From assembly GCA_019509785.1 (NCBI GenBank), contig JAEKLQ010000030.1:1-64000 (forward strand): a stretch of DNA of 64,000 nucleotides, in the 5' to 3' direction. The stretch is from Fibrobacterota bacterium. GTDB taxonomy: Bacteria > Fibrobacterota > Fibrobacteria > UBA11236. The notes below the pieces were generated by a model. The model did no database searches. It worked only from the letters and a program-made list of their open reading frames with translations, and had not been told where the DNA came from. Of this stretch, positions 13,915-22,771 are shown one piece after another; position 1 is the stretch's first letter, and every line of letters begins with the position of its first letter. The translations under genes and the position numbers were made by a program.

Positions 13915-14574
13915 TTAGGCCCGCTCTGACCCGAGTACCTTTCCGAATCTCGTAAGCAAGGTTTTCACCGTGGGCTCGCCCGCCTTTTCCAGCATGTTCT
14001 GGATGTGCCGGCGCACCGTGAAGAAGGAAATGCCCAGCTTATCGGCGATGGCCTCGCGTTTCATGCTGGCGTTCAACAGGCGCAAAATCTCCTTTTCCCG
14101 ATCTGAGAACCGATCCAGCTCCGCCGACTTCTTCCAAAGCTCGGCGGCGGCGGCGACTTGCTTAACGTAGAGCTCGCCCACCTCGGAAGGGATGATGAGA
14201 TGTCCCTGAGCCACCTGCAGGAGAGTGTCGCAGAGGATCTCCAGATGGGTCTTGAGGACGTAACCGCGCGCGCCTGATTGGTACGCCTCCAGCACATCCC
14301 CTTGGTTGACCGTCATGATCACGGGCTTTACCACCGGATAATGCATGCGCAGCCAGACCAGCAATTCCAAACCCGCCCGCGGGGTATCCAGGTGGATGTC
14401 GATAAGGGCCAGCTCGGGCAAATGGGCCGCCGTCTTTTCGCGGAAACCCTGGCTGTCGTGGGCGATGCCGGCCAGTTTCAGGCGCGGTTCCGCCTGGAGG
14501 AAGTCCTCCACGGTTTGGGCCAAGTCGAGATTGTCCTCGACCATGACGAGGGAAATTGGATTACCGGTGCTCAT
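13915..14574 (-). CDS. NarL/LuxR-type response regulator
   Basis: A 219-residue regulator. The receiver shows acidic residues at MVEDN, phospho-acceptor Asp 59 (LALIDIHLD), the Thr position at VIMTVNQ, and Lys 108 (GYVLKTH). After a linker the LuxR helix-turn-helix follows (FSDREKEILRLLNASMKREAIADKLGISFFTVRRHIQNML). It is divergent from the kinase gene at 14737, its most likely partner. It should bind DNA as a dimer on phosphorylation; targets are unknown, although the 162-base gap between the two genes is a natural first site. Confidence 0.92.
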   Translation of the reverse strand: MSTGNPISLVMVEDNLDLAQTVEDFLQAEPRLKLAGIAHDSQGFREKTAAHLPELALIDIHLDTPRAGLELLVWLRMHYPVVKPVIMTVNQGDVLEAYQSGARGYVLKTHLEILCDTLLQVAQGHLIIPSEVGELYVKQVAAAAELWKKSAELDRFSDREKEILRLLNASMKREAIADKLGISFFTVRRHIQNMLEKAGEPTVKTLLTRFGKVLGSERA

Positions 14575-14736
14575 AATGATTGGACCTTGCCGGATGATTT
14601 CATCGGCCTCGGCGTGCTACTCGGATGTCAGACGGCTCAACGTCCGGGAAAGGTAAAAAAATACTACTATCCAAGTCCCCCTCCGGGCCCCGAGCGAAGC
14701 CGGCCGGATGTCCGGAAAGGAGGGATCCGAAACATC

Positions 14737-16041
14737 ATGCCCGCCTGGCTTGCACAGCTCGCCCTCGGTTCATCGCTAGCCTTGGGCGTCCATTTTTTGT
14801 TCGTCGGCGTTCGCGTCAAACCCTTGCGGGGCCAGGCCTGGCTGGGTCTGGTTCTGGCCGGCCTCGCCTTGGCCTTCCTGTTCACCGGGACCCGCTCCGT
14901 TACCCTTCCGGTTTGGCTCGGGCTGACCCTGGGAGGCGCAGCGGGCGTCATCTACCTCACCCATCGCTTCCTGGCCTTGTACATGGCCGACCGCAAAGCC
15001 ATGCAGGCGCTTTCCCGGGCCTATGCCGATCTGCAGGCATCCGCCCATATGCGGGAGCTGGGGATGTCGGCCGCTTCCATCAGCCATGAGATCCGCAACT
15101 ATGCCGCGTCCCTGAAAGGCAATGCCGTCCTTTTGAATCGCGAATTGGATCGCGAAACGGATCGCGAATCGGACCCGGCGGGCCAGAAGGGGGAATTGGA
15201 ACGGATCCGGACGGCGGCGGATCGGATGGAAGCGATCTCCCGCGACATTTCCGTTTTCGCCGGCGCGGCGCGCTCTCCGCGCCTGGAACCCTTGGATTTG
15301 GAGCGGGTGATCGGCGATTGCCTGGAGAACCGTTTTCCCGGGAAGCGCGCGAGCGTCCGATGCCGCGGAGGCGCCAGGATGCAAGGCGATGCCGCGCGCC
15401 TGGAACAGGCTTTCATGAATTTGTTCCGCAATGCTTGGGAAGCGGGCGCCTCGGGAGTGGAGGTCCGTCTCACTGCCTGGCACGGTAAGCTGGTGGTGGC
15501 CGTCGAAGACGATGGCCGCGGATGTTCTCCCGGGGATTTGGAGCGCATCGCCATGCCGTTCTTTTCGCGTAAAGGCGACCGGGGCACGGGCCTCGGATGC
15601 TCCATCGCGGAATCCATCCTGCGCGCCCATGGCGCCACGCTCCGCGCCTACAGCAAGAACGTCCTGGGCAAGGGACGCAGCGGCTTGCTGCTGAACCTGG
15701 TGTTCCCCTCGGACCGGGCCCGAACCGGGGATCCCGGCGGGGAACTGACGGTGGCGGCGGGCCTTGGCCCGGCGCGGGAGAACCTCGTGCGTCCCATGCT
15801 GCATCTGGGCTTACGGCCGCGTTTCCTGGATCTCGGCACGGGTCCGCTCCATCCCTCGCGATCCGGCGGCGGTCCGCTTTTCCTGGATAGCGAAGCCGCG
15901 GATCGATTGGTCGGCCCGTCCGGGAACCTGGCCATAGTCGTAGGGTCGAACCGGGAAGCCGTACGGCGGCCGGGCGGGGGCGCCTTCCTGTTCTCGGAAG
16001 AGGAATTGATCGGCGTCTTGCGAACGGCCGAACGGCCATGA
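14737..16041 (+). CDS. Membrane sensor histidine kinase (HK1) with C-terminal extension
   Basis: ATG 14737 lies 12 bases after AAAGGAGGG, giving 434 residues. Three membrane helices (residues 1-85) lead into a helix and the HisKA motif SAASISHEIRNY with phospho-acceptor His 117. The ATPase domain has the N box FRNAWEAGASGVEV and G boxes EDDGRGCSPGD and GTGLGCSIAESIL. About 100 residues follow the catalytic core (from VAAGLGPARENLVR on), similar in position to extensions of the kinases at 16038 and 20086. The partner is presumably the divergent regulator at 13915. The longer frame reaching to 14278 only reads the antisense of that regulator. Confidence 0.88.
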   Translation: MPAWLAQLALGSSLALGVHFLFVGVRVKPLRGQAWLGLVLAGLALAFLFTGTRSVTLPVWLGLTLGGAAGVIYLTHRFLALYMADRKAMQALSRAYADLQASAHMRELGMSAASISHEIRNYAASLKGNAVLLNRELDRETDRESDPAGQKGELERIRTAADRMEAISRDISVFAGAARSPRLEPLDLERVIGDCLENRFPGKRASVRCRGGARMQGDAARLEQAFMNLFRNAWEAGASGVEVRLTAWHGKLVVAVEDDGRGCSPGDLERIAMPFFSRKGDRGTGLGCSIAESILRAHGATLRAYSKNVLGKGRSGLLLNLVFPSDRARTGDPGGELTVAAGLGPARENLVRPMLHLGLRPRFLDLGTGPLHPSRSGGGPLFLDSEAADRLVGPSGNLAIVVGSNREAVRRPGGGAFLFSEEELIGVLRTAERP

Positions 16042-17765
16042 TACTGGACCTGGAACACTTGGTCTGGTCGGGCTTGGCGGCCCTCGCCGTGCTTTTCGTT
16101 TCCATCGCCGTGAGACTAAGAGAGGATCGCGAATTCGCCTTGTTGGGAAGCGGGCTGGCGCTGCTGTGCCTGGTGGTCGCCACCGACGTGTGGATCTTCT
16201 GCGATCCGGCGCCCAAGGCGGCCTTGGGATCCGCTTGGCTAGCGGCATTGCAGAATGCCCAGCAAATCGCCGCCTGCGCTTACGTGTGGGTGGCGCTGCG
16301 TTTTACCAACTCCCTTACCGGCCGCCCGGGCCTACCGGCTTTGCGCGCGCATGCGGCGATCCTGACGGCGCTGTGCCTGGGATTCTACGTCGATATACTG
16401 AGCCCGGCGGACCTCTTCGTGGCCGAGTCCCCCGCGGGATTCTTCACGGTGACGTGGGCCTTCGATTTCATCTATTCGCCCTACCTGATCTCGTTGTTCG
16501 CCTGGAACGTCGTCCTTACCCTACGCGGGTGGCGCGCTGCCAACGGCGAGGCGCGCCGCACCTTGGGGGCCCTCGCCATCGCCTATACCTTGCTGCTCTT
16601 AGGGGGTTGCCTCGATTTCATGGGCGCTTGGCGGCCGTACCTCCGCGTTCTCCCCAGCTCGACCATGCTGGCCGCCCTTTCCATGGGCGGCATCGGAACC
16701 TACCTCTTCACCGCCCGGCTCATCCGCCTCTACCAGAACCAGCGCGAGGCCATCCTGAAGATAGCCGCCATCCATGGCGACCTCGAGACCCATCGATCGC
16801 TGGGGGACTTGGGGCAATCGGCCGCCCACATCAGCGAGTCCATCCGGGACTTCGTGTCCGAAATGAAAACCGATGCCGAATCGCTGCGCCGCGATCCGGC
16901 GACGGCGGCCCGGGCCGAACCCGCGCGTATCGAGAACGCCAGGAGCCGGCTGGAGTCCTTCACCGGCGCCATCTTGGAATTTTCCCGCAGCGCGCGGATA
17001 GGGGAGCGTAGGCTCCTCTCGCCTTCCGCTTGGGTGGCCGAGTGCCTGGCCGCCATGCCGCCGGAAGAGCGAGACCTGGTCCGCGTGCTCGGCACGGTTT
17101 CCCGTCCCATCTCCGGGGATCCCGCCATGCTCCGTAAGGCCATGCGGGAGTTGATCCGCAATGCCTTGCAAGCGGGCGCCAGCCACGTCGAAGTCCGTCT
17201 CGCCGAGGGACTGGGCCGCTTATCGGTGGCCGTCCAGGACGATGGCTCCGGTTTCCCCTTCGATCAACTCGGCCGCATCGCGAGCCCCTTCTTCACCACG
17301 CGCAAGGCGGAAGGCGCCTGCGGATTGGGCGCATCCATCGCCCAGGGGATTTTCCGATCCCACGGCGGAAGCCTCTCGTATTATCCGGCCCTCACGCCAT
17401 CATTCCCGGGCCTGCTTGCCAATGCGACCCTCCCCCAACACTTCGGCTCCCAGGCCGGATGGCGCGGGGCATCCGGCTGGATCCTGATCTGCGACGTCGC
17501 CGCGCGCATCGACAGGTTCCTGGAGACCTGCGCCAACGTCGGGATCACGCCCACGGTGCGCGGGTCCGCCGAACCGGATACGGGGTCCGGGACCTCGTTT
17601 GCCATCGTGGACGCGGCCGCCGGAACGGTCGCTAGCCTGCCTTCGCGTTGGAAGCGGTTCCGGCTCGCGGGCGATATCGTGGACGGCGATCCCTATGGCG
17701 GAGGGAATTGGCTTCGCGAAGAAACCTTGATCGCCTGGGCGGCATCCGCGCCCCTGGCCGGCTAA
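16038..17765 (+). CDS. 7TM histidine-kinase-like protein (HK2) lacking the phospho-acceptor His
   Basis: A 575-residue protein whose ATG overlaps the HK1 stop (ATGA), so the two are coupled. About seven membrane helices span residues 5-235. The dimerisation motif reads LGQSAAHISESIRDF; against LGMSAASISHEIRNY of HK1 and LGESTAIINHEIKNY of HK3, the phospho-acceptor His is Glu at residue 267. The ATPase domain looks intact: N box ELIRNALQAGASHVEV, G boxes QDDGSGFPFD and ACGLGASIAQGI. A C-terminal extension of about 105 residues follows. It may modulate HK1 or act as a phosphatase rather than autophosphorylate; this is inference. Confidence 0.85.
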   Translation: MILDLEHLVWSGLAALAVLFVSIAVRLREDREFALLGSGLALLCLVVATDVWIFCDPAPKAALGSAWLAALQNAQQIAACAYVWVALRFTNSLTGRPGLPALRAHAAILTALCLGFYVDILSPADLFVAESPAGFFTVTWAFDFIYSPYLISLFAWNVVLTLRGWRAANGEARRTLGALAIAYTLLLLGGCLDFMGAWRPYLRVLPSSTMLAALSMGGIGTYLFTARLIRLYQNQREAILKIAAIHGDLETHRSLGDLGQSAAHISESIRDFVSEMKTDAESLRRDPATAARAEPARIENARSRLESFTGAILEFSRSARIGERRLLSPSAWVAECLAAMPPEERDLVRVLGTVSRPISGDPAMLRKAMRELIRNALQAGASHVEVRLAEGLGRLSVAVQDDGSGFPFDQLGRIASPFFTTRKAEGACGLGASIAQGIFRSHGGSLSYYPALTPSFPGLLANATLPQHFGSQAGWRGASGWILICDVAARIDRFLETCANVGITPTVRGSAEPDTGSGTSFAIVDAAAGTVASLPSRWKRFRLAGDIVDGDPYGGGNWLREETLIAWAASAPLAG

Positions 17766-17769
17766 TCAG

Positions 17770-17800
17770 GAATTATTTTTCGGGGCGAATTATTTTTCGG
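17770..17800. repeat. 14-bp direct repeat at convergent gene ends
   Basis: GAATTATTTTTCGG occurs at 17770-17783 and 17787-17800, between HK2 and the CPBP gene. The second copy contains the CPBP stop codon and last codons; the first duplicates it outside the gene. It looks like a small local duplication. Confidence 0.85.
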
Positions 17801-18518
17801 CGCTCCGGCGGGCGAAGGCGGAGGCGGCGACCCATGCCAGATTCGTCGCGAGATGCATCGCCATGACCGGATAGAGGGATCGGGATATGCGGAAAGCCAA
17901 AGCCAATAGGATCCCCGAGAGGACGCTGGTCCCGGCGAAAGCGAGGCCGGCGGCCCGGCCGGTCCCGCCGGTTCTTCCGCCAAGGTAAAGCCAATGATGA
18001 ATCCCGAACAGAACCGATGCCGCGCAAGCGGCCGGCCAGAATCCCCATCCGCCGGCGAGCGAGGGGAGCAGGTACCCCCAGAAAAACAAATCCTCGCCCA
18101 GAGGAGCCCAGAGCACGGCGTAGGCCGCGAACAATCCGGATACGGCGCGAACGGAAAGGCCCAACCGTCGGGAGGCGGTAAGCAAGGCGGCCTCCAGCGC
18201 CGCCGCCGGCGAAACCCGGGGGTCGCCCGCATATCCCCGCCGGCGCAGCCAAGACTCGTAGGCCAGCCCCGCCAAGCCGAGCTCCCAGATAGGCAAGGCG
18301 AATGCGCAGAGCATCCAAGCCATCGGAGCGGCGGTGAGGGCGGCCAACGGATTTCCCTTAGGCCAGCTTCCCGCGTATAGCGGCAAGGCGATCGCGAGGA
18401 CGGCATGGAACAGGAAGAAGGGCGCCCAACGGGATCGACGGGTTTCCCACCCCAACCCCAAGGTAAGCGCGAGGGCGATGAGAAGGGCGGCAGCGGGGGA
18501 GCGCAAGACCTCGCTCAT
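17790..18518 (-). CDS. CPBP/Abi-family membrane protein, degenerate glutamate motif
   Basis: A 242-residue protein with about seven membrane helices. The CPBP (Rce1-like) domain covers residues 130-240: motif 1 region APLGEDLFFWGYLLPSL, motif 2 ASVLFGIHHWLYL, motif 3 MAMHLATNLAW. Family proteases carry EExxxR in motif 1; here it reads EDLFFW, so the second Glu is Asp and the Arg is Trp. The His residues of motifs 2 and 3 remain. It may have lost protease activity or act differently. ATG 18518 was chosen because the upstream extension only mirrors the divergent gene. Confidence 0.8.
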   Translation of the reverse strand: MSEVLRSPAAALLIALALTLGLGWETRRSRWAPFFLFHAVLAIALPLYAGSWPKGNPLAALTAAPMAWMLCAFALPIWELGLAGLAYESWLRRRGYAGDPRVSPAAALEAALLTASRRLGLSVRAVSGLFAAYAVLWAPLGEDLFFWGYLLPSLAGGWGFWPAACAASVLFGIHHWLYLGGRTGGTGRAAGLAFAGTSVLSGILLALAFRISRSLYPVMAMHLATNLAWVAASAFARRSAEK

Positions 18519-18575
18519 TCGCCATCCCCTTCCGATCCGGCTGGGCGCGATCCCGGCGCTGCCGCCGCGGAGGCA

Positions 18576-19895
18576 TTGGTCGAGCGCTTCGCGCGGCAAG
18601 GCACCTTCGGGAATTGGACCTCCCTGGTTCCCGGGCGCGACTCCCGCTTCGCCTTCCCCGATTTCCTGAGGATGTTCATTTCGGTGCCGCGCCTCCGCAA
18701 GGATCTCGCTTTGGGCCTCATCTACAATTGGACCGCGGGCCGGGCGCGGCGTCCTGAGGGCTACAGCCAACGGCTCATCCCGGACCGCGCCGCGTCGGGC
18801 GGCAAATATACGTTTTTCCACTCCTCCTTCTGCGACCTGGTGGTTTGGGAAGCGCTGTTGGCGCATGCCCGGGCGCAGGGGGACATCCCCGCGCGCTACC
18901 GGCAAGGGGCCCTCGCGGCGGTCGACTTCGCCTTGGAAAACGGCCGCGCCATCCCTTTCGAAGAATCCTCCCTGACGGTGTTCTCCTACTATCCCAGCCG
19001 CGGCCATCTGGTGCCTCCTGAGCATCCTGCCTATAAGCATTTCCTTTCCTGGGATGCCGGCGTTCCCGACAATGATTCGACATGCATCGTATTGGGATCG
19101 CTACTGCGCCTCCTGATCGATTTGGGGGAACCGATGGAACGGCTGATGCGGCCGGCAGGCGTCATGCGGCAGCACTTGCGCTTGCTAAAAGCCCATGTCC
19201 ATCGGGAGGGCCGATACGGCGATGGATTCCTCAGCTATGCCAGCGGGGTGGCGCCGGGCGACCGCGGGATTCTCACCTGGATATTCGATCGCCATAACGA
19301 ATTGGATCCCACCAGCAATATCAACGTGCTGAACTTCCTGTCGCTTTTGCTCGCGGCCGGATTCCGCGATCTCGGCGCGGAGATAGCCGAGCTTGCGGGA
19401 GGCATCCTCGGGTTCCTGCGCCATCATGCCAGGGCGGGAAACCTATTCCATCCCCGGCTGCAGCAATACTATCCGCCGGCGTCCAGCCTGCTCTTCTGGT
19501 ACCGCTTCCTGCGAAACCTCGATTTGCTGGACGCGGAGTCGAGAAAACTATTCGATCCCGGCGATGCCATCGGGGAAATCGATGCGGCCATCCGAAGCCA
19601 TTCCGTTTTCCTGTTTTCCGGATCGGGGAATGTCCCTAATCCATCCGATGCCGCGCTGGCCTCGCCCTACCTGCAGCGCGCGGGGATCGGAATCGGCGAT
19701 TTCTCCGCTCCCTGGAATGCGCCACAAACAACCCTGGAACACTTCGGGACAAATTTTTACGAAGTCTTTCATCTACTCTATCCGGTGCAAGTCATTTGCG
19801 TAACCGAAGCTCTGCCCATCGCCGCTTACTTGCTTTTCGAAACCGAAAGAAAACGACAATCCGATAAGAAACGTGCGGCTCAAATTCAGTGTTAG
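18576..19895 (+). CDS. Alpha/alpha-toroid protein resembling terpene cyclases, function unknown
   Basis: About 440 residues, mostly helical, soluble. Helical pairs, the PDNDSTCIVLGSLLRLL segment (compare the DxDD region of squalene-hopene cyclases) and TSNINVLNFLSLLLAAG suggest the alpha/alpha barrel of terpene cyclases and protein prenyltransferases. It has DNDS rather than DxDD, so classic class II cyclisation is doubtful. The start is uncertain: ATG 18405 would overlap the divergent CPBP gene by 114 bases with a low-complexity N-terminus; TTG 18576 has GGAGG very close; ATG 18672 is later. A UbiA prenyltransferase lies two genes downstream. Confidence 0.6.
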   Translation: MVERFARQGTFGNWTSLVPGRDSRFAFPDFLRMFISVPRLRKDLALGLIYNWTAGRARRPEGYSQRLIPDRAASGGKYTFFHSSFCDLVVWEALLAHARAQGDIPARYRQGALAAVDFALENGRAIPFEESSLTVFSYYPSRGHLVPPEHPAYKHFLSWDAGVPDNDSTCIVLGSLLRLLIDLGEPMERLMRPAGVMRQHLRLLKAHVHREGRYGDGFLSYASGVAPGDRGILTWIFDRHNELDPTSNINVLNFLSLLLAAGFRDLGAEIAELAGGILGFLRHHARAGNLFHPRLQQYYPPASSLLFWYRFLRNLDLLDAESRKLFDPGDAIGEIDAAIRSHSVFLFSGSGNVPNPSDAALASPYLQRAGIGIGDFSAPWNAPQTTLEHFGTNFYEVFHLLYPVQVICVTEALPIAAYLLFETERKRQSDKKRAAQIQC

Positions 19896-20002
19896 TGCAA
19901 CTTTCCCGATTCTTGAGATTATTAGGGTTGGATTAATTGTGGATAGGTTGTTCGGCTACTGTGGATTCGTTGTTAAATTCTTGTTGGCTTTATGTTAACA
20001 GC

Positions 20003-20032
20003 TTGAATGGCTTGGTTTTTTGTTGATATACT
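20003..20032 (+). promoter_or_regulatory. Sigma-70-type promoter ahead of HK3
   Basis: TTGAAT (20003-20008) and TATACT (20027-20032) are separated by 18 bases, inside an AT-rich stretch (19896-20060) that stands out in this GC-rich window. Transcription would start near 20039, leaving a leader of about 47 bases before ATG 20086. Confidence 0.5.
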
Positions 20033-20085
20033 CGGCCTTGTATTGTTGAAAACCTAAATGCAAAGACCATAGGCCCCATCGGAAC

Positions 20086-21870
20086 ATGATCATCCTCCTC
20101 CAGGTTATCTGCTCCTTCCTTTTCGCAACCGGCTGCTTGTTTTCCCTCATCGATATGCGGACGAAATGGGATCGTAGCTTCAAGTATTTCGGTATATCGC
20201 TCATCCTTCTCTCCTTGATGGCGGCCATCGATTTGTGGGTCCGTCCCAGCCACGCCAGCCTGGCCGACAAATTGTTTTGGGAACGAATGCTGCACGTGCT
20301 CGCGTGTTTCTTCTTCCCCTTCTCATTGGGCTACCACCTGATGATCACGCGCTGGCCGACGATCACCCCGCTGAAAATCCTGATAGGCATGGGCGCCCTC
20401 TGCCTGCCGCTGGTCTTCACCGATCCCATGATCAACTCCCGGAATGGCTCCGTCATGGGAGGGCCGCTTTACTACGCCTTGTTCTTCCCCTTCGCGCTTT
20501 TCTACATCGGCTGCGCCAATTACGTCGTCATCCGCCGTCTGAAGACGGCAGTCGGGCATGAACGGAAAATCCTCTGGTTCCACCTGGCCGGTTTCATCCT
20601 GCTCGCCGGGTTCGGCTTGATCGATATGACGGGGGTCGCCAATCCGGCCACGAGAATCATCCCCAGCTTCAAGATCATCGGCATACTCGTCTACGGCGTC
20701 ATGGCGTCGCTCATCTTCGCGGAACGGTTCCTCATGATCTTGCGGGACAACCAGGCCACCTTCGCCAAGCTGGAAACCGCTTACCGGGATTTGGAACAGG
20801 TGAACGCGCTCAAGCAATTGGGGGAGTCGACCGCCATCATCAACCACGAGATCAAGAATTACATGTTCATGATCGGCGGCAACGCCCAGCTGCTCCGGGA
20901 AGCGGTCCCGCTTTCGGAGAAGGGCAGCCAGATCGTCGACAACATCATTACCTCGGTGGAGCGCCTGACCGAGTTCAGCGATGATATCCTGAAACTTTCC
21001 CGCACGGAAGTGGTGCGCGAGAAGCATCCCGTCAATCTCTCCCAGGTAATCCACGGCACCATCGAAAAGCATTTCCCCGGCCGCAAAGCCTGCTTCCAAC
21101 TTTCCGGCCTCGAACGGGAACGCTTCATGTTCGGCGATTGGAGCAAGCTCGAACAGGTCTTCGTGAACATCTTCAACAACAGTTTCGAAGCCAGCGGCGG
21201 GCAGCCGGTGGAGATCAAGGTCAAGGCGAACGCCACGGACACCACCCTGGTCGTGAGCGTGGAAGACGACGGCGTGGGTTGCGATGAAATGCAAATCGAC
21301 TGCCTCTTCAAGGCATTCTATACGACCAAAAAGCGGCAGGGCGGGACCGGGTTGGGCATGTCCATCACGCGTACCATCGTGGAAAGCCACGGGGGCCGCA
21401 TCAGCGCCTATTCGAAAAACCTCGCGCGCAAAGGCGAGCACGGCCTCAAGCTGGTCATGACCTTCCCCTTCTACGCGAGCAAGCTGGCCGAGGAGGCGGG
21501 CCGCAAGCACCCGATCGCCTTGGTGAAAGAAGGCATGGACAACTTCGGCGATATCATCCGCGTTTTCGGGAACCTCAAGGTGAATCCCTACGTCGTCGCG
21601 GACGTGGGCGATCTGTCCGGACTGGATGTCCCTCCCGAGTCCCTAACCGTGATCGTGAGCGCCAAGGCCATGGCGGATAATTTCACCCGCCTCGCCGATT
21701 ATCCGCAATTGTGCCTGGTTTCCCGCCATAAGCACAATCTCTACATCCTCGATCAGGGCCGTGGCAGCCGGCCCGAGATCTTCAGCGAGGAATACGTCGC
21801 TTCCAGCATGCTCCGCAGCCCGCGATCGCGCACCCGCTTCCGGGAACGGCAGCACCAGTTGGTGCCGTAA
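20086..21870 (+). CDS. 7TM sensor histidine kinase (HK3) with C-terminal extension
   Basis: A 594-residue kinase. Seven membrane helices span residues 1-222 and a short coiled coil follows (KLETAYRDLEQVNALKQLG). The HisKA motif STAIINHEIKNY carries phospho-acceptor His 254. The ATPase domain has the N box VNIFNNSFEASGG and G boxes EDDGVGCDEMQ and GTGLGMSITRTIV. About 120 residues follow the core (from VKEGMDNFGDIIRVFG on), with alternating strands and helices like a receiver fold but no phospho-acceptor Asp. N-terminal topology resembles HK2. It has its own promoter; its regulator may be the one at 13915. Confidence 0.9.
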   Translation: MIILLQVICSFLFATGCLFSLIDMRTKWDRSFKYFGISLILLSLMAAIDLWVRPSHASLADKLFWERMLHVLACFFFPFSLGYHLMITRWPTITPLKILIGMGALCLPLVFTDPMINSRNGSVMGGPLYYALFFPFALFYIGCANYVVIRRLKTAVGHERKILWFHLAGFILLAGFGLIDMTGVANPATRIIPSFKIIGILVYGVMASLIFAERFLMILRDNQATFAKLETAYRDLEQVNALKQLGESTAIINHEIKNYMFMIGGNAQLLREAVPLSEKGSQIVDNIITSVERLTEFSDDILKLSRTEVVREKHPVNLSQVIHGTIEKHFPGRKACFQLSGLERERFMFGDWSKLEQVFVNIFNNSFEASGGQPVEIKVKANATDTTLVVSVEDDGVGCDEMQIDCLFKAFYTTKKRQGGTGLGMSITRTIVESHGGRISAYSKNLARKGEHGLKLVMTFPFYASKLAEEAGRKHPIALVKEGMDNFGDIIRVFGNLKVNPYVVADVGDLSGLDVPPESLTVIVSAKAMADNFTRLADYPQLCLVSRHKHNLYILDQGRGSRPEIFSEEYVASSMLRSPRSRTRFRERQHQLVP

Positions 21871-21894
21871 GCCCTCACCGCTGCCCTCACCGCT
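21871..21894. repeat. Two tandem 12-bp repeats between HK3 and UbiA
   Basis: GCCCTCACCGCT is repeated head to tail at 21871-21882 and 21883-21894. The second copy contains the stop codon of the UbiA gene. It may simply mark a slippage site. Confidence 0.85.
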
Positions 21895-22771
21895 GCGCAA
21901 GCCAGCACATCCCGAGCGCGAAAAAAACCAGGTCCGCTTCCGCGAGCCACCCCGCCGCCCTTTTCCGGATTCCGCCCCCCAGATTCAGGCATAGGTAAAG
22001 GAAGGGGTAGAGGCCCAGGAACGCCAGGAAGGCCCCATGCATCCCATCCAATCGGCGCTGCGCAGTCAGTACGGCGATCAAGGCGATCCAGACGGCATCG
22101 AGGATCATCAATAGGAATTGGGATCGGCGGGCCCCCCAAGTAGTCGGCAAGGTCCTGATCCCCGCGGCCCGGTCCCCGGGTTCGTCCAGGATATCGTCGA
22201 AGAGGGTGTTGTTGAGGGTGCTGATGAAAAAGCCGGCCGCGAGCATCCAAACCGGAAATGCGCCCGCGAGTTCGCGTCCCGCCCCGAGAATGGGGACCAC
22301 GAACACCGAAGCGCCCCATAGGAACGATACGCATAGGTTTTTCATGAAGATCATTTCCTTGATGCGGACCAGATGGAAACCTCTGCCCGGGGCGAACCAA
22401 GGGATGACGCGGTAGGAATAGCCGGACCCCATGGTCAGGAGCAGCATGTGCATCCAATTCAGTTTTCTTTCCGCGACCAGGGTCCCTACGCTGCCCATCA
22501 AGGCGAGGATCCCGAGATAGAAGAAGATGCGCTTACCTTGGAAGAAAAGGAAGCGGCCCAAATCGTTGGCGAAATCCTCGACCGAATCGGTAAAACGGTT
22601 CAAGGTGTAGACGCCGAAGATAATCCCCATGAAGCTCAGGGAACTGGCCGCGTCGAACGGAAAGCCAAGGTAGCGTTGAACGGAATAGACGCAGAGCAAT
22701 CCCGCGGAGGAGAGGTACACCAGCGAGAAGGCGGGTTTCATTTCGGCGAATTTGATTTTTAACGCATGCAT
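21887..22771 (-). CDS. UbiA-family prenyltransferase
   Basis: A 294-residue integral membrane enzyme with about eight helices. Both Asp-rich UbiA motifs are present: NRFTDSVEDFANDLGR near residues 58-73 and DDILDEPGDRAAGIRTLP near 195-212. These bind Mg-polyprenyl diphosphate. UbiA enzymes attach isoprenoid chains to aromatic rings (quinones, haem, chlorophyll) or to sugars. No quinone pathway gene is adjacent; the acceptor could be the aromatic polyketide made by the genes at 7565-10219, but they are 12 kb away. It converges with HK3. Confidence 0.9.
   Translation of the reverse strand: MHALKIKFAEMKPAFSLVYLSSAGLLCVYSVQRYLGFPFDAASSLSFMGIIFGVYTLNRFTDSVEDFANDLGRFLFFQGKRIFFYLGILALMGSVGTLVAERKLNWMHMLLLTMGSGYSYRVIPWFAPGRGFHLVRIKEMIFMKNLCVSFLWGASVFVVPILGAGRELAGAFPVWMLAAGFFISTLNNTLFDDILDEPGDRAAGIRTLPTTWGARRSQFLLMILDAVWIALIAVLTAQRRLDGMHGAFLAFLGLYPFLYLCLNLGGGIRKRAAGWLAEADLVFFALGMCWLAQR

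Follow-up and report, generated by a model that had tools for sequence, protein, structure and literature searches.

Three genes for histidine kinase-like proteins, here called HK1, HK2, and HK3, lie on the forward strand of the 64,000-nucleotide stretch of Fibrobacterota DNA that we analyzed (the window), and a gene for a response regulator lies beside them on the opposite strand (Table 1). HK1 carries its acceptor histidine, H117 (CAT, 15085-15087), in the motif AASISHEIRNY. A Shine-Dalgarno-like stretch, aaaggaggga, precedes HK1, and none is found upstream of HK2, a pattern that fits coupled translation of the two genes. The initial annotation had described HK2 as translationally coupled to HK1; the ATGA overlap between them is there in the sequence, and the coupling itself is what we infer.

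Table 1. Features of the HK1-HK2-HK3 locus, with window coordinates, strand, and remarks
Response regulator, receiver plus LuxR-type HTH	13915..14574	-	Conserved with HK3 in five congeners
HK1, sister kinase	14737..16041	+	Intact H, N, G1, and G2 boxes; ~3 predicted TM helices; no HK3-type membrane domain
ATGA overlap, HK2 start/HK1 stop	16038..16041	+	HK2 start 16038; HK1 stop 16039-16041
HK2, His-less histidine kinase paralogue, 575 aa	16038..17765	+	Intact ORF; sequence and alignment
HK2 multi-pass membrane domain, residues 1-225	16038..16712	+	Homologous to HK3-family membrane domain; profile match
HK2 H box AAHISESIRDF, residues 262-272	16821..16853	+	E267/S268/D271 in place of H/E/N
HK2 N box RELIRNALQAG, residues 370-380	17145..17177	+	E371 (17148-17150) for first Asn; N375 kept
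HK2 G1 DDGSGF (residue 401), F PFFTTR (residue 417), G2 ACGLG (residue 427)	17238..17330	+	
HK2 C-terminal region, ~105 aa	17448..17762	+	Relation to HK3-family C-terminal domain not significant
HK3, canonical kinase, TAIINHEIKNY	20086..21870	+	Conserved at locus in five congeners

At the position of the acceptor histidine, HK2 has Glu (residue 267, codon GAG, 16836-16838). The initial annotation had noticed this by setting AAHISESIRDF beside AASISHEIRNY of HK1 and TAIINHEIKNY of HK3, and its reading of the codon and of all three motifs is borne out by the sequence. We aligned the H box in 27 sequences, comprising HK1, HK2, HK3, the HK3 orthologues of five congeners, 10 HK3-type proteins belonging to other families in the phylum, and 9 related kinases of the genus; the acceptor column is His in all 26 relatives and Glu in HK2 only. 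In HK2, E-S-I-R-D stands in place of the motif H-E-x-[KRN]-N (HExxN to ESxxD), and the columns concerned (H to E, E to S, and N to D, along with N to E and E to Q in the N box) are otherwise invariant or nearly so. With at least five functional positions altered, a view of HK2 as a kinase with a single substitution was rejected, as was sequencing error as the source of E267, since His to Glu and Asn to Glu take two base changes each and Glu to Ser takes three. The Pfam HisKA model matches HK1 at 23.5 bits and HK3 at 32.6 bits and has no match to HK2 at an E value of ≤1. Both the acceptor His and the HExxN/T motif of functional HisKA domains are missing from HK2, and the combination that it does present, histidine kinase ancestry with the acceptor gone and the gene intact, is that of a pseudo-histidine kinase. 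The earlier proposal of a pseudokinase is thus well supported by the loss of the His, the adjacent Glu, the H-box Asn, the first N-box Asn, and the HisKA match. Judged by these residues, HK2 most likely lacks the chemistry for histidine phosphorylation as well as HExxN-type phosphatase activity.

Pfam HATPase_c matches all three kinases, HK2 with a score of 56 bits. The N and G boxes of HK2 had been called normal, a description that holds for N375, DDGSG (DxGxG), and GLG, the retention of which makes ATP binding by HK2 plausible. It does not hold for the first Asn of the NxxxN motif, which is Asn in 26 of 26 relatives and Glu371 in HK2, for the N-box Glu replaced by Q378, or for the G2 box, where GTGLG has become ACGLG and the first Gly is Ala. 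In CpxA, the general base is Glu249, which adjoins the acceptor His and is kept in place by a hydrogen bond from Asn356, and the N356Y substitution makes the enzyme strongly kinase deficient (PMC3904827). HK2 E371 aligns with the position of Asn356, so given the roles assigned in CpxA, every member of this His-Glu-Asn group is altered in HK2 (E267, S268, and E371).

An AlphaFold2 model of the cytoplasmic part of HK2, made with three sequences, has a mean pLDDT of 51.5, with better values of 68 to 86 around the beginning of the ATP domain, a region that contains the N-box helix. For this low-confidence model, Foldseek ranks CpxA and ZraS structures first, which suggests, with the same low confidence, that the modeled core resembles histidine kinase structures best. 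The top phmmer match of HK2 in the PDB, 4biz, is a CpxA entry that has Glu for the acceptor His (ISEELR), unlike other CpxA entries, so a substitution of the HK2 type is compatible with the histidine kinase fold.

A 15-member profile for the membrane domain of the HK3 family matches HK2 residues 4 to 225 at 57 bits (E = 2e-17), where the best of 200 shuffles reached 7.2 bits; the N terminus of HK1 does not match it (0.2 bits). By this N-terminal membrane domain, common to both, HK2 groups with the HK3-type sensor kinases of the phylum. HK2 would therefore carry a sensor-type domain without the chemistry and HK1 the chemistry without that domain; taken with the ATGA overlap, this division is the main argument for HK2 acting on HK1, and a circumstantial one. 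At the other end of the protein, HK3 (21502-21822) and its orthologues have a conserved C-terminal domain of ~100 aa with an SEEY-like motif, for which no Pfam family was matched and for which a single-sequence model gave an alpha/beta pattern at low confidence. A degenerate receiver was considered for this domain and rejected, as the alpha/beta pattern was all that spoke for it and there was neither a Pfam match nor a PDB fold match at an E value of ≤0.001. The C terminus of HK2 has no significant match to the profile of this domain (E = 2) and retains REE at the site of the SEEY-like motif.

In the tree, HK1 and HK2 are sisters with support of 98/94, and HK2, on a branch of 1.47 compared to 0.69 for HK1, has a placement that is subject to long-branch caution. 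A recent duplication of HK1 and HK2 from HK3 finds no support, as the two fall together outside the HK3 clade, with some uncertainty left by the long branches. Five congeners have the same flanking locus, in which HK3 is 58 to 62% identical and the response regulator 59 to 74%, and the HK1-HK2 pair is absent from all five. The syntenic genes, named partly from their translations, encode a porin, a pseudouridine synthase-like protein, an alcohol dehydrogenase-like protein, an ABM-domain-like protein, the regulator, HK3, a UbiA-type protein, and an MgtC-like protein; some of them were not seen in congener G001, where the contig ends. A search of 168 genomes of the phylum found no HK2 orthologue, with either His or Glu, at an E value of ≤1e-22 in the 167 other genomes, where the matches were HK3-type kinases, and a scan of genome contigs for an orthologue returned distant kinases only. 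The stretch between the regulator and HK3 (14574-20086, and the same stretch in L062-L066) is a variable slot that holds different genes in most congeners. One of its occupants in the window, an ORF at 18519-19895 with no Pfam or NCBIfam match, adjoins a CAAX-protease-like ORF; of the congeners, G001 alone has a homologue of it at this position.

We consider it probable, judging from the sequence, that HK2 is a lineage-specific pseudo-histidine kinase that serves as a sensing, allosteric partner of HK1, with expression, the pairing, the binding of ATP, the direction of control, and the target as presumed parts of that reading. According to this model, a sensor kinase of the HK3 type was duplicated, and one copy, HK1, would have kept the catalytic core and lost the membrane sensor domain, while the other, HK2, would have kept the membrane and ATP-binding domains and lost histidine phosphorylation and HExxN-type phosphatase chemistry. 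The two proteins would be made together and would probably pair via their dimerization helices, their membrane parts, or both. HK2 would sense the signal and set the balance of kinase and phosphatase activities in HK1, whose H117 would carry the phosphoryl group, most likely on to the adjacent LuxR-type regulator. That HK2 controls HK1, which the initial annotation had raised, we infer from their sister relation, the ATGA overlap, and the way in which ancestral parts are split between them. The assignment of HK2 to HK1 and to the LuxR-type regulator is by position only, and the conserved neighbor of that regulator is HK3.

Of the alternatives, the one that fares best, unlikely as it appears, is that HK2 is a decaying duplicate that lost catalysis under relaxed selection, is unbroken so far, and has no function. 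A singleton in a variable slot, on a branch twice as long as that of its sister, is what such decay could leave behind, and HK2 keeps just 20 of 34 near-invariant family positions in the ATP domain, along with 10 of 21 in the DHp domain and 6 of 13 in the membrane domain, counts by which it appears to drift fast in general. However, the split between HK2 and HK1 is deep and old, yet the 575-aa frame contains no frameshift, and GC3 stays at 0.78 to 0.87 across the entire gene, as in neighboring genes. The losses in the active site are also uneven, with six of seven ATP contacts kept and none of four phosphotransfer residues (Fisher p = 0.015, for categories chosen post hoc), which argues against decay.

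It is improbable, on our reading, that HK2 is a hydrolyzing ATPase with an ExxxN motif of the GyrB/Hsp90/MutL type that acts on HK1 as a nucleotide-driven switch. The GHKL ATPases, such as GyrB, Hsp90, and MutL, resemble HK2 in that their ATP domain is of the Bergerat type and its N box begins with Glu, and their catalytic general-base Glu lies exactly at the position of CpxA Asn356 (PMC3904827), where HK2 has E371. We surveyed this position in 64 distinct ATPase domains recovered from loci of the genome of HK2, and 60 of them have Asn there, with HK2 and MutL the only two that have Glu; read separately, the GyrB/ParE-, HtpG-, and SpoIIAB-like proteins of this genome also have Glu, and no other HisKA-type kinase recovered does. 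MutL chains are matched by HK2 (E ~1e-3) in a PDB search and are not among the matches of HK1. The ExxxN N box of HK2 (RELIRN) is not diagnostic, however, as this genome also encodes a HisKA_3 kinase that has such a motif (KEALNN) together with an intact His. A second His-less kinase in this genome, at locus L102, retains the Asn, and because of these two cases Glu in the N box is no proof of ATP hydrolysis. Unlike the GHKL ATPases, HK2 is also a clear relative of histidine kinases by sequence and fold. There is a slim chance of a concerted change, in which loss of the His, Glu, and Asn on the acceptor side coincided with the N-box change from Asn to Glu, restoring the base of GyrB, Hsp90, and MutL, so that a membrane sensor would drive its tandem-encoded kinase by ATP binding and hydrolysis, not by phosphotransfer. 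E371 is a simple residue through which the question of kinase, dead kinase, or ATPase becomes testable.

Very doubtful is a scheme in which the two proteins form a heterodimer and HK1 is phosphorylated on H117 by the ATP domain of HK2. Its precedent is FasB, proposed to act in this way on FasC in Streptococcus pyogenes, where these kinase-like proteins are encoded at one locus and are proposed to form a heterodimer with split roles (PMC12675982), and HK1 and HK2 are likewise overlapping paralogues, with the ATP site of HK2 mostly kept. FasC, the partner with the His, is proposed to be the one that needs no kinase domain, whereas HK1 has both its His and its own ATP domain intact. We take FasB and FasC to belong to a kinase family different from that of HK1 and HK2. 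E371 also stands in place of the Asn that holds the Glu, so that, extrapolating from CpxA, two acids would meet at HK1 E118 (PMC3904827). That HK2 still works as a kinase and takes its phosphate on H264, which is present one helical turn before E267, is scarcely credible, as this column is mostly hydrophobic in relatives (I, L, M, F, C, or S) and has the look of a packing position, not of a phospho-acceptor, no acidic residue follows H264, and the partner Asn of the N box is gone.

Pseudo-histidine kinase partners of other kinases are known from a few bacteria, and the sequence comparisons made here place HK2 among the pseudo-histidine kinases in its present state and among the HK3-type kinases of the phylum in its ancestry. 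RocA of Streptococcus pyogenes has seven N-terminal membrane helices and, in its cytoplasmic part, a putative ATPase motif, and like HK2 it joins a membrane part to a kinase-like cytoplasmic part; it acts on a separate sensor kinase, CovS/CsrS (PMC6635533). RocA binds its partner via the membrane part and is not described as an overlapping or sister gene, whereas HK2 is the sister of its presumed partner. In DivL of Caulobacter, which regulates the kinase CckA, the acceptor His is Tyr550 and neither kinase nor phosphatase activity is present (PMC4211667). DivL resembles HK2 in having a HisKA/HATPase core with the acceptor His replaced; it differs in that it has PAS sensors, is described as retaining all of its other boxes, and is conserved across alphaproteobacteria, while HK2, a singleton with a membrane sensor domain, is also missing the Glu and Asn of the H box and the first Asn of the N box. 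Control of one sensor kinase by another through hetero-pairing occurs between RetS and GacS of Pseudomonas aeruginosa (PMC12189002), where RetS, unlike HK2, is a hybrid kinase and in addition dephosphorylates GacS. The ChrS pseudokinase, which pairs with HrrS, evolved in the laboratory (PMC9491836). As far as compared, HK2 does not belong with RocA, DivL, FasB/FasC, or ChrS at the level of homologues. Few pseudo-histidine kinases have been studied, and the published cases that we found are from alphaproteobacteria, streptococci, and pseudomonads; HK2 comes from another phylum, and sensor and catalysis appear to be split between it and HK1, which are encoded by overlapping sister genes.

A second tandem pair, conserved in the genus, makes it more credible that HK2 is a pseudo-partner. 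In the 64-domain survey, HK2 and the L102 kinase were the only proteins with a HisKA-type core and no His, if proteins of the CheA, MutL, and LytS types are set aside along with a domain (L112) that was cut by the edge of its locus and could not be judged; the regular-expression survey of H boxes had missed one intact kinase, L148 (THELKLP). The L102 kinase (G000:C33:60764-62692; also L171) is a hybrid of 644 aa with SGAIRAP at its H box and an intact-looking receiver, and an intact paralogue (HEIRTP) lies immediately upstream of it. The His is missing in all five aligned members of this group from the genus (SGAIRAP, SDEIRSP, SGEIRAP in two, and NGEIAVP; the orthologues are at L172, L173, L174, and L175), and each of the five lies directly behind a long ORF on the same strand. 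An intact kinase followed by a His-less sister suggests a recurrent design in the genus, and the L102 pair is better material than HK2 for showing selection.

HK3-type kinases adjoin a UbiA-type prenyltransferase gene throughout the genus (20086-22771 in the window, and L062-L066). The same neighbor is present in most of the HK3-type loci examined from other families of the phylum (L088-L095), and this arrangement suggests a functional link between HK3-type kinases and the UbiA-type prenyltransferase.
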